Shown piece after piece: positions 14,846 to 43,370 of a stretch of 64,000 nt of DNA. The DNA is taken from the NCBI RefSeq assembly GCF_036865545.1, contig NZ_CP142208.1, positions 1,054,001-1,118,000 on the forward strand. The letters are read 5' to 3'. The stretch comes from Erwinia sp. E_sp_B01_1. GTDB taxonomy: Bacteria > Pseudomonadota > Gammaproteobacteria > Enterobacterales > Enterobacteriaceae. The notes beneath the pieces are model-generated. The model was not told the DNA's origin and searched no databases. It saw only the letters and a list, made by a program, of their open reading frames with translations. Each line of letters starts with the position of its first letter. The stretch's first letter is position 1. Both the position numbers and the translations under genes were made by a program.

Positions 14846-15600
14846 CCTTAACCTCCAGAGAAGCGTTATCGATTGCCGACGGCTGACCGATAAGATCGGA
14901 AATAGTTTTTTGAGACGCTCTAATTTACCAGAACGGCAAATAGCCACTTAGCCTGGAAAATAGACAGGCGGGGATTTTAATTACTCTAGATGGCGCGTGG
15001 AGGAATTCCAGTAACAATCAGAAATAATTTTCATTCTGCTTTTCGCTTTGCTGAAAGGCAGCAGAAAAGCACTGTTTTCGCGGATTTAAACGCGATTGAG
15101 AAAGGTCAGCAAATCATGGATGAGGTTTAAAGTGGCGCCTTTCAGCCCGGCCCCTCTTATTAAATAATGCATTCACGAAGTACAGCCAGAATATCCACGC
15201 TCTAATCAGCGCCTTTAAGTAGCCAGATGGCTGGCTGAGAGCGAAATTCTCAGCAGGAAAAACCAGCAGTTAGTGAACAAAATGTAATCACTATTGAGCA
15301 ATGTTGTTAATAGCAAAGGCTTGCCTTGCAGCGATGTTGAAATTTATCATTTAAATCAATTGATTATAAAATAGTTTGGTTTTTTTTGTGGGTGGGGCTT
15401 GTGCTGCCCCTCCTGTTATGAGTAAATGCACCGTCGGTTTTGAAACAGACAACGTATGCGAGCAATTTTAGTAAAGCAGTTTTCAGTAAAAGGTTATCTC
15501 TGATATCTCTTCCTGACTTCCTTCTTAAGTGCCTCATAAGTCCACCCTGTTGACAAACCCCGTGCCCTTTGCGGCTTAATACTTATTGAAGGAAAGACAA
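14846..15600. other. long intergenic region containing the cold-shock gene promoter and leader
   Basis: No gene of coding quality is visible over about 755 bases. The right-hand part (from about 15430) is the leader of the cold-shock gene. The AT-rich part at 15340-15390 probably holds upstream promoter sequence. The remainder (14950-15330) shows no feature I can name; a small RNA there cannot be excluded. Confidence 0.5.
15430..15600 (+). promoter_or_regulatory. cspA-type 5' leader with cold-box-like element
   Basis: CGGTTTTGAAACAGAC at 15435-15450 resembles the cold box at the 5' end of E. coli cspA mRNA. It lies about 160 bases upstream of the start codon, close to the 159-nt leader of cspA. 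Such leaders act as thermosensors that favour translation in the cold. The transcription start is inferred. Confidence 0.55.
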
Positions 15601-15813
15601 ATGTCTAACAAAATGACTGGTTTAGTAAAATGGTTCAACGCTGAGAAAGGTTTCGGCTTCATCTCCCCAACCGACGGCAGCAAAGACGTATTCGTACACT
15701 TCTCTGCAATCCAGAACGGCGGCTTCAAGACGCTGGAAGAAGGTCAGAAAGTTGAGTTCTCTATCGAAAACGGCCAGAAAGGCCCAGCAGCTGCTAACGT
15801 AACTGCTCTGTAA
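15601..15813 (+). CDS. cspA: cold-shock protein, CspA family
   Basis: This 70-residue single cold-shock domain has RNP1 (KGFGFI, residues 16-21) and RNP2 (VFVHF, residues 30-34). The N-terminus [17 protein letters not shown] is nearly that of CspA. It is an RNA chaperone that melts mRNA structure and antiterminates transcription at low temperature. I place the start at 15601 because GAAGGA lies just upstream; a frame-extending ATG at 15586 is unlikely. The long leader is typical of cold-induced members. Enterics carry several paralogues, so the exact symbol is uncertain. A terminator follows at 15875. Confidence 0.88.
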
Positions 15814-15874
15814 TTAGAGAACTTTTCGCCGGTACGCAGCGGAACTTTGTTCAGGCAGCCCCAGCGAGAATACG

Positions 15875-15901
15875 AAAAACCCGCCTTATGGCGGGTTTTT
15901 T
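15875..15901 (+). terminator. Rho-independent terminator of the cold-shock gene
   Basis: ACCCGCC-TTAT-GGCGGGT at 15879-15896 is followed by six T residues. Confidence 0.88.
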
Positions 15902-16110
15902 GCGTCTGTCATCGCCTCACCCTGGTAGTCAGAAACACTGCCTTTGCCGGATCAACGGTCAGTGACAGCCCCTCTCTCCTGCAGTTTTCACCCCCAGTGC
16001 AGCGTAAAACTTCAAAGTTGATGCTATCCCCTGATTTGCCACTCATCGCTAAAACCTCCTTGTTACACTTTGGTTTCGCACTTCAGCCATAAGGCCCTGT
16101 TTACAGCAAG

Positions 16111-42795: not shown

Positions 42796-42837
42796 GCGGC
42801 AGAACTCAGGACATAAACGCACAGAAGTTTCAGACGT

Positions 42838-42868
42838 AAAAAAGCCCGACATCACATCGGGCTTTTTT
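42838..42868. terminator. bidirectional terminator for the pstS-like gene and the antisense-type small RNA
   Basis: GCCCGA-N7-TCGGGC at 42844-42862 is flanked by six A residues (42838-42843) and six T residues (42863-42868). It can end the plus-strand pstS-like transcript and the minus-strand small RNA. Confidence 0.85.
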
Positions 42869-42922
42869 CATTCCGGTAGCAGTTGGTGCTGCGACGGAAC
42901 GTGCTGCTTGCATCTGTTCACG
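42838..42922 (-). ncRNA. istR: IstR-1-like antitoxin small RNA
   Basis: The predicted RNA of about 85 nt starts near 42922 and ends at the terminator 42838-42868. A strong promoter precedes it on the minus strand: -35 TTGACG (42956-42951), 16-base spacer, -10 TAAAAT (42934-42929). The 5' end (42921-42901) is complementary to 43118-43138 in the TisB-like toxin leader over 21 positions, with 20 Watson-Crick pairs and one G-U. E. coli IstR-1 is likewise divergent from tisB, constitutive, and pairs over 21 nt. No transcript evidence is available. Confidence 0.75.
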
Positions 42923-42928
42923 GGATCG

Positions 42929-42956
42929 ATTTTATCACGGATTGTGTTACCGTCAA
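42929..42956 (-). promoter_or_regulatory. constitutive-type promoter of the IstR-like RNA
   Basis: TTGACG and TAAAAT on the minus strand are separated by 16 bases. The expected start, seven bases downstream, coincides with the first base of the segment complementary to the toxin leader. Confidence 0.7.
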
Positions 42957-43001
42957 GAGATCACAAAACAGACGATTCCTGCTTCATTAGTGGTCAAACT
43001 A

Positions 43002-43017
43002 CTGTTAATATATACAG
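43002..43017. promoter_or_regulatory. LexA (SOS) box of the TisB-like toxin gene
   Basis: CTGT-TAATATAT-ACAG matches the LexA consensus CTGT-N8-ACAG perfectly with an AT-rich core. It lies between the divergent small RNA and the toxin leader, as in the E. coli istR/tisAB region. It would repress the toxin until DNA damage. Confidence 0.85.
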
Positions 43018-43081
43018 GTGTTCGGATATTCCGGGGTGGCCCTAGCAGTTGTCACACTGCATCAGAATTTCGCCCGGCAGG

Positions 43082-43211
43082 AAACAGGTGGTGCTGTCCT
43101 GTTTGCCTCCACCCTGAGTGCTGCTTGTATCTGTTCACATTGATGCGCGCGGTGAGGGTTGAACCTGAAGGCATAAGCTGCGTGCGGCACTCTCCTTGCA
43201 GGAGAAATGCC
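43082..43211 (+). promoter_or_regulatory. structured toxin mRNA leader with antisense target and sequestered ribosome site
   Basis: Three elements are visible in order. A hairpin AAACAGG-N9-CCTGTTT occupies 43082-43104. The small-RNA target lies at 43118-43138. A second hairpin pairs TCTCC (43191-43195) with GGAGA (43201-43205), extended by GGCA/TGCC (43186-43189 with 43208-43211). The second hairpin buries the toxin Shine-Dalgarno. In E. coli, tisB translation needs an upstream standby site because its own start region is structured, and IstR-1 blocks that site. Confidence 0.65.
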
Positions 43212-43214
43212 ACA

Positions 43215-43304
43215 GTGATTATTCTCGCTATCATCCTGATAGTTCTGAAGATAATGCATGTGATGTTGCAGATTCTCGAAATAATCCTTGCGAAACGCAA
43301 GTGA
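43215..43304 (+). CDS. tisB: TisB-like type I toxin, 29-residue membrane peptide
   Basis: A GTG-started frame encodes 29 residues, the same length as E. coli TisB. Aligned without gaps it shares K12, L18, Q19, L21, an acidic residue at 22, L25 and K29, within an amphipathic hydrophobic helix (it begins MIILAIILIVLK). TisB inserts in the inner membrane, collapses the proton motive force and promotes persistence during SOS. AGGAGA lies 9 bases upstream. The LexA box, the complementary small RNA and the terminator at 43340-43370 support the call. A longer upstream extension of the frame crosses the LexA box and is not credible. Confidence 0.78.
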   Translation: MIILAIILIVLKIMHVMLQILEIILAKRK

Positions 43305-43339
43305 GTGAAAGCCGTTCTGGCTGACACAACTGGATCAAA

Positions 43340-43370
43340 GGCCGGGTAAATTACCGACCCGGCCTTTTTT
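43340..43370 (+). terminator. Rho-independent terminator of the TisB-like gene
   Basis: GGCCGGGT-N9-ACCCGGCC (43340-43364) is followed by six T residues. Confidence 0.88.

Follow-up and report, generated by a model that had tools for sequence, protein, structure and literature searches.

A probable chromosomal type I toxin–antitoxin module of an as yet unnamed family in Erwinia, with a leader resembling those of tisB and dinQ

The locus and its short reading frame

The window analysed here, a stretch of 64,000 nt from Erwinia sp. E_sp_B01_1, carries a compact set of elements between a pstS-like and a metE-like gene (Table 1). A short hydrophobic reading frame is preceded by a LexA box and a structured leader, and a small RNA gene complementary to this leader runs in the opposite direction. 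As the initial annotation had remarked, the locus is unlike that of tisB in E. coli. The pstS-like to metE-like interval measures 744 bp in the window, as against 172–411 bp in relatives (16 of the 29 compared, the other 13 having given no valid interval), and the module looks like an insertion between the two genes. At gathering scores, the Rfam models matched only a cspA thermoregulator leader elsewhere in the window (15433–15904, 219.5 bits).

Table 1. Features of the module; positions are those of the window
Feature	Position	Strand	Evidence
Putative antitoxin sRNA of ~90 nt (approximate ends), AgrB-like, with a terminal hairpin and T run	42836..42925	-	Rfam AgrB, model R2, fold
Antisense segment of the sRNA	42901..42921	-	Complementarity to leader
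sRNA promoter TTGACG-16-TAAAAT, TG before -10	42929..42956	-	10/12 matches in promoter scan
LexA box CTGTTAATATATACAG, presumed toxin operator	43002..43017	+	Core match; CTGT-N8-ACAG perfect in 3/3 A copies, 0/16 B copies
Structured toxin leader (model R1 minus start codon)	43070..43214	+	Model R1, 133.1 bits
GGTGGTGC core of leader	43087-43094	+	Leader alignment
Antisense target in leader	43118..43138	+	21 nt paired, one G-U
Hairpin TCTCCT-TGC-AGGAGA burying the Shine–Dalgarno sequence in its 3′ arm	43191..43205	+	Fold, comparison of loci
Putative toxin ORF, GTG start, 29 aa (stop included)	43215..43304	+	Reading of frame; conserved GTG and frame, purifying selection among copies
Hairpin with T run behind the toxin, resembling a terminator	43340..43370	+	Sequence, fold

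The 29-codon frame reported in the initial annotation as hidden inside a longer open frame is indeed present: the peptide read from GTG 43215 to TGA 43304, VIILAIILIVLKIMHVMLQILEIILAKRK, is nested in a 120-aa open frame (42942–43304), with a Shine–Dalgarno sequence, AGGAG, at 43200–43204. The amphipathic character ascribed to the peptide holds for the window copy, whose moment of 0.32 over residues 1–25 was attained by 0.6% of 5000 shuffles. The corresponding proportions were 7% and 6% for its two closest relatives, L005 and L006, and 50% for L031, the sole peptide measured from a second branch (B, see below); this one peptide does not share the amphipathicity.

A gap-free alignment with TisB of E. 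coli K-12 gives nine identities, namely the K12, L18, Q19, L21, L25 and K29 already listed in the initial annotation together with M1, I6 and L11; the shared acidic residue at position 22 is E in the window peptide and D in TisB. Shuffled peptides averaged 5.1 identities and reached nine in 3% of 20,000 cases, while the eight identities with DinQ were reached by 7%. Taken alone, the resemblance to TisB is therefore weak, as had been cautioned for so short a peptide. Its specificity also does not exceed that of the similarity between TisB and DinQ themselves, since local alignment scored 44 with TisB (shuffle mean 28.8) and 39 with DinQ (26.4), against 47 for TisB with DinQ. The nearest peptides are those of L005 and L006 (81 and 80), followed by the B branch (at most 62 among those compared, the value for L031, with a shuffle mean of 25.7) and then TisB. 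The scores of L005 and L006 with TisB, 33 and 38, were attained by 14% and 7% of shuffles and are not significant. The search with TisB family profiles suggested in the initial annotation turned out negative: Pfam TisB_toxin (PF13939) gave 9 bits, where the cut-off is 25, and no NCBIfam model matched the window peptide up to an E value of 10, neither that of TisB (TIGR04459/NF011340) nor those of DinQ and DqlB (NF041472, NF041473). Peptide homology on its own was consequently discarded as a route to family identity, the signal being too weak.

Leader, Shine–Dalgarno hairpin and antisense RNA

The LexA box, antisense RNA and leader structure that had been said to surround the frame are all recognizable in the sequence, as a LexA core, a 21-nt complementarity, an sRNA promoter and a leader fold. 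LexA cores of this type occur twice in the window (0.67 expected), and promoter-like sites twice in the scanned stretch (1.1 expected). GTCAA, the complement of the sRNA -35 element, is present in 18 of 19 aligned copies of the element, the remaining one, L073, having TTCAA. The promoter scan found no -10/-35 pair for the toxin near 43000 on the + strand; if transcription begins just after the LexA core, the leader would be ~195 nt long. A simple terminator scan listed neither the toxin-end nor the sRNA-end hairpin.

The leader proved far more informative than the peptide. A model, R1, was trained on 20 leaders of the window family only, from an alignment (A1) that leaves out the decayed L073 and the held-out L003. 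Within the window it scored 133.1 bits at the locus, which is a training row, and 8.6 bits at the next best place in 64 kb. Applied to two fetched loci of E. coli K-12, R1 matched tisB with 24.1 bits (E 2.9e-5 for 24 kb) and dinQ with 16.2 bits (E 0.0031 for 24 kb), each time as a match of the whole model whose end coincides with the start codon. From the GGTGGTGC core to the start codon, the distance is 128 nt in the window, 126 nt in dinQ and 154 nt in tisB. A hairpin of at least four pairs at the Shine–Dalgarno sequence is found in 26 of 27 loci, K-12 dinQ and tisB among them, as compared with 66 of 1350 shuffled sequences; for at least five pairs the counts are 23 of 27 and 26 of 1350. It exists in compensatory versions (TCTCCT/AGGAGA, TCTTCC/GGAAGA and CGCTC/GAGCG). 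The leader and hairpin shared by the family, tisB and dinQ probably reflect common descent; convergence over 150 nt seems unlikely. In the folds, the probability that the Shine–Dalgarno sequence is unpaired was only 0.05 for each of three 5′ ends tried, so that some activation step would be expected.

Across the family Enterobacteriaceae, R1 matched in 50 of 295 genomes (own included) and 29 of 154 genera, and within the genus in 16 of 37 genomes. The 43 R1 loci examined are a selected set, further matches being without a locus or copies already known; in 37 of them a hydrophobic frame of 24–36 aa lies within 25 nt of the R1 end, as against 35 of 860 control positions. A toxin-like mini-ORF follows the match at 28 of 29 loci of other genera (27 of 28 once L120 is set aside, its leader being the same as that of training row L079) and at 9 of 14 loci of the genus. 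Of the 37 loci with a hydrophobic frame, 22 have a perfect LexA core upstream, and all 22 belong to other genera. We scanned 24 peptides, namely the three of branch A plus 21 out of 30 distinct peptides from R1 loci: 14, all from other genera, matched TisB and one matched DinQ, at E values up to 0.001. At L103 and L133, as well as at L114 and L144, the R1 match is followed by an ATG peptide (MKGFLQIAVIALKA..., MITILTIIKLV...); no NCBIfam model matched those of L103 and L114, and L103/L133 and L114/L144 are perhaps two more toxin families.

The sRNA runs divergently from the toxin, and its 5′ part is complementary to the leader. Rfam AgrB (RF02891) matched it over the full length of the model (1–84) with 31.0 bits and an E value of 0.0038 in a search of 761 bases, short of the gathering score of 40; among 17 other loci, AgrB was seen only at L069 at E values up to 0.5. 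The sRNA body and terminator (42827–42890) are 82–84% identical over 64 nt to the sequence lying upstream of two annotated plasmid genes, dqlB on an IncX5 plasmid of E. coli and dinQ on a plasmid of Erwinia tracheiphila. An sRNA model, R2, built from an alignment (A2) without L069, which has no clear terminator, and the held-out L003 and L124, gave 70.7 bits at 42833–42930 of the window (a training row), 36.0 and 30.4 bits at the two plasmid loci, and 41.6 and 15.2 bits at TisB loci of other genera (L122 and L130). The scores on AgrA, AgrB and IstR-1 of K-12 (26.1, 25.6 and 21.2 bits) prove nothing, because R2 lacks specificity at low scores and gives 26.1 and 21.4 bits at window positions that have nothing to do with the sRNA; R2 was therefore rejected as proof of kinship with these RNAs. 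Terminator palindromes, moreover, yield wrong-strand R2 matches.

Counting ties, the own leader is the best partner of the sRNA in 15 of 19 family rows, and the same holds for the two E. coli controls, dinQ (31) and tisB (21). Over all 21 rows, controls included, own pairing scored 19.9 on average and cross-pairing 9.2. The exceptions are L005 and L006, which pair best with the leader of the window, L064b and the decayed L073. Since own pairing is best in most rows, the pairing segments appear to drift mostly together with their targets. Modules also occur in tandem, with three copies at L066 and two at L064, whose toxins are identical or nearly so and whose pairing segments differ. The segments look as if they were kept apart against cross-talk; cross-pairing scores are still fairly high for some of these tandem pairs.

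Copies at other loci and their history

Searches of 37 genomes of the genus revealed copies of the element at other loci, and 19 copies, window included, were aligned. GTGAT is present in all 19, and the frame is open, over 29–33 codons, in all except L073, which stops early. For the B branch, 15 distinct frames were compared, two of them from Pantoea loci: entropy at the three codon positions is 0.73, 0.49 and 0.90, and 104 of 105 pairs have a dN/dS below 1, with a median of 0.45 (the pairs are not independent). The window frame differs from L005 at 7, 2 and 12 sites and from L006 at 6, 2 and 15 sites of the first, second and third codon positions, and is separated from each by an in-frame indel of 12 nt (four codons). 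This pattern indicates that the toxin frame is under purifying selection; the conservation in Erwinia and Pantoea relatives that the initial annotation had proposed to look for is thus borne out.

The window peptide appears to belong to a new, as yet unnamed family with two branches. Branch A consists of the window, L005 and L006, all with the perfect LexA core and peptides ending in ILAKRK; it occurs in 3 of the 37 genomes, as judged from 31 of the 34 listed matches. Branch B comprises the other 16 copies, in none of which the core is perfect. In 12 of these 16, TATAAT occurs in the interval from -100 to -30 relative to the conserved core, and 14 of 15 open B frames have QLT near the C-terminal end (mostly ...QLTG..). 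In a midpoint-rooted tree, branch A was supported at 92/93 and grouped with B and C, apart from dinQ, dqlB and tisB, by a weak split (63/64); half of the inner forks are open, the bootstrap had not settled and long branches meet among the known toxins. Two loci from another genus, L124 and L003, encode GTG peptides with a B-like tail yet have a LexA box, perfect in L124 and imperfect in L003, from which it may be supposed that SOS control was gained or lost more than once. In a family-wide DNA search 2 of 149 genomes matched, own included; searching within the genus was more productive. Two of 12 pattern matches, L077 and L084, look like chance.

With a B-branch peptide as query, 27 plasmid records were found at E values up to 0.1; among the 25 listed, 12 have no feature and 13 a hypothetical protein under the match. 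The IncT plasmid Rts1 combines a weak peptide match (E 0.03) with a good leader match (108.2 bits), and at this locus (L151, 1469–1723) the annotation covering leader and toxin is a hypothetical protein in a different frame. The window peptide matched no plasmid record, and a search of phage records gave no match. In six copies (L101, L102, L112, L113, L117 and L119) the sRNA gene runs straight into the leader at a repeated segment of ~20 nt; upstream, the sRNA-promoter element GTCAA and a TATAAT-like site were both looked for and not found. These copies look like deletion scars. Their fused structure fits recombination between the two, antisense segment and target being direct repeats of ~20 nt. 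The likeness of these two segments also suggests an origin of the sRNA gene by copying of the leader.

Interpretation and comparison with known systems

We conclude that the stretch 42836–43370 (~535 bp) is very probably a chromosomal type I toxin–antitoxin module of an unnamed family. In growing cells, the toxin promoter would be repressed by LexA, and a divergent sRNA, made constitutively, would pair with 21 nt of leaked toxin mRNA, upstream of the start. By analogy with tisB and dinQ, pairing may block ribosome loading or rearrange the leader; the sRNA has been described as blocking standby loading in the former and shifting the fold in the latter (PMC5668327, PMC3567139). With the Shine–Dalgarno sequence locked in its hairpin, free mRNA would presumably be poorly translated until processed or loaded via the leader. 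The primary mRNAs of tisB and dinQ are inert and activated by 5′ processing (PMC5668327, PMC3567139). Upon DNA damage LexA would be removed and the toxin mRNA would outrun the sRNA. Translation from the GTG would then produce a cationic amphipathic helix of 29 residues that may enter and depolarise the inner membrane, leading to growth arrest or tolerance.

Short hydrophobic frames are common enough, as the control positions show, for a chance frame in an intergenic region to be considered; this explanation may be regarded as refuted, because the module recurs at unlinked loci with start, frame, indel phase and architecture conserved. Alternatively, the copy in the window could be a decayed relic, retained through recent arrival and no longer expressed. 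Its sporadic occurrence, the six deletion scars elsewhere in the genus and the lack of a good toxin promoter in the scan would agree with this; the parts in the window, however, look intact and the frame is under selection among the copies, which makes decay very unlikely.

An ordinary TisB/IstR-1 ortholog could be invoked from the length of 29 residues, the LexA box, the nine identities and the leader homologous to that of tisB. Yet the window peptide passes neither TisB profile, whereas 14 of the 24 scanned peptides do match TisB; it starts with GTG instead of ATG, its spacing is 128 instead of 154 nt, its sRNA is AgrB-like and its locus is different, and we find orthology in this strict sense extremely improbable. 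The designation 'TisB-like' in the initial annotation thus stands for the LexA-type box, hydrophobic peptide, antisense RNA and leader, and fails as a family name; it holds at a level that lies deeper than the peptide sequence, because the leader is homologous to that of tisB too. A diverged DinQ or DqlB with its AgrB would account for the nested GTG, the LexA box, the AgrB-like sRNA and the nearly identical spacing (126 and 128 nt; cf. PMC3567139). No NCBIfam model for these toxins matched, though a DinQ of the same genus, L104, passes (40.9 bits, cut-off 30), and the tree, with its weak split and midpoint root, sets branch A apart from them; we consider this assignment rather unlikely. A member of a separate, unnamed family remains our preferred reading.

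At a larger scale, we think it likely that tisB/istR-1, dinQ/agrB, dqlB/agrB and the families described here form one superfamily derived from a single module, in which the antitoxin gene would be a second copy of the toxin leader, read in reverse. The toxin peptide, its control by LexA and the pairing segment would diverge fast while leader and Shine–Dalgarno hairpin persist, and each new pairing segment would create an orthogonal pair. It may be that zor/orz belongs here as well. A 2024 paper reports that a segment of the zor leader matches the sequence upstream of plasmid dinQ frames at 71–74%, and its authors knew of no earlier proposal that zor/orz and dinQ/agrB are evolutionarily related (PMC11264685). 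In the titles and abstract openings surveyed we found nothing on this family, nor on tisB and dinQ having a common origin; works on the zorO leader and the 2016 DinQ structure might mention relatives, and PMC12365149 cites the latter for DinQ-like families. The present analysis would add a toxin family overlooked by standard models to Erwinia, Pantoea, Mixta and plasmids of several genera, the plasmid copies seen being of the branch without LexA control. The leader model offers a tool for modules whose peptides are too short or diverged for protein searches, and ties together toxin families hitherto treated as separate.

The divergent layout common to tisB, dinQ, zor and shoB has already been described (PMC4147584). 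With tisB/istR-1 of K-12 the window module shares a cationic amphipathic peptide of 29 aa, a LexA box, a divergent sRNA with ~21 nt of pairing, a homologous leader and the Shine–Dalgarno hairpin; it differs in the TisB models not being passed, the GTG start, the shorter spacing from leader to start and the AgrB-like sRNA. The dinQ gene of K-12 likewise has a GTG start in a longer frame and a LexA box (PMC3567139); in the window these features, like the Shine–Dalgarno hairpin also shared with dinQ, are recognized by sequence. Like dinQ/agrB and the plasmid-borne dqlB/agrB, for which toxicity and pairing have been experimentally established in the case of dqlB/agrB (PMC12365149, PMC12317039), the window has a divergent AgrB-like sRNA pairing with a leader that contains GGTGGTGC. 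Unlike them, it encodes a peptide matched by neither model, at a different locus; its pairing spans 21 nt as compared with 30/31 nt in dinQ and 35 nt in dqlB of pOXA-48 (PMC3567139, PMC12365149), and one sRNA was found as against two in K-12. By description, zor/orz of E. coli resembles the module in its divergent sRNA, its multicopy loci and its variable pairing region, which may prevent cross-talk (PMC11264685, PMC5668327). The GTG in a nested frame, the spacing of 128 nt and the AgrB-like sRNA point, within this group of systems, to the dinQ/agrB side.
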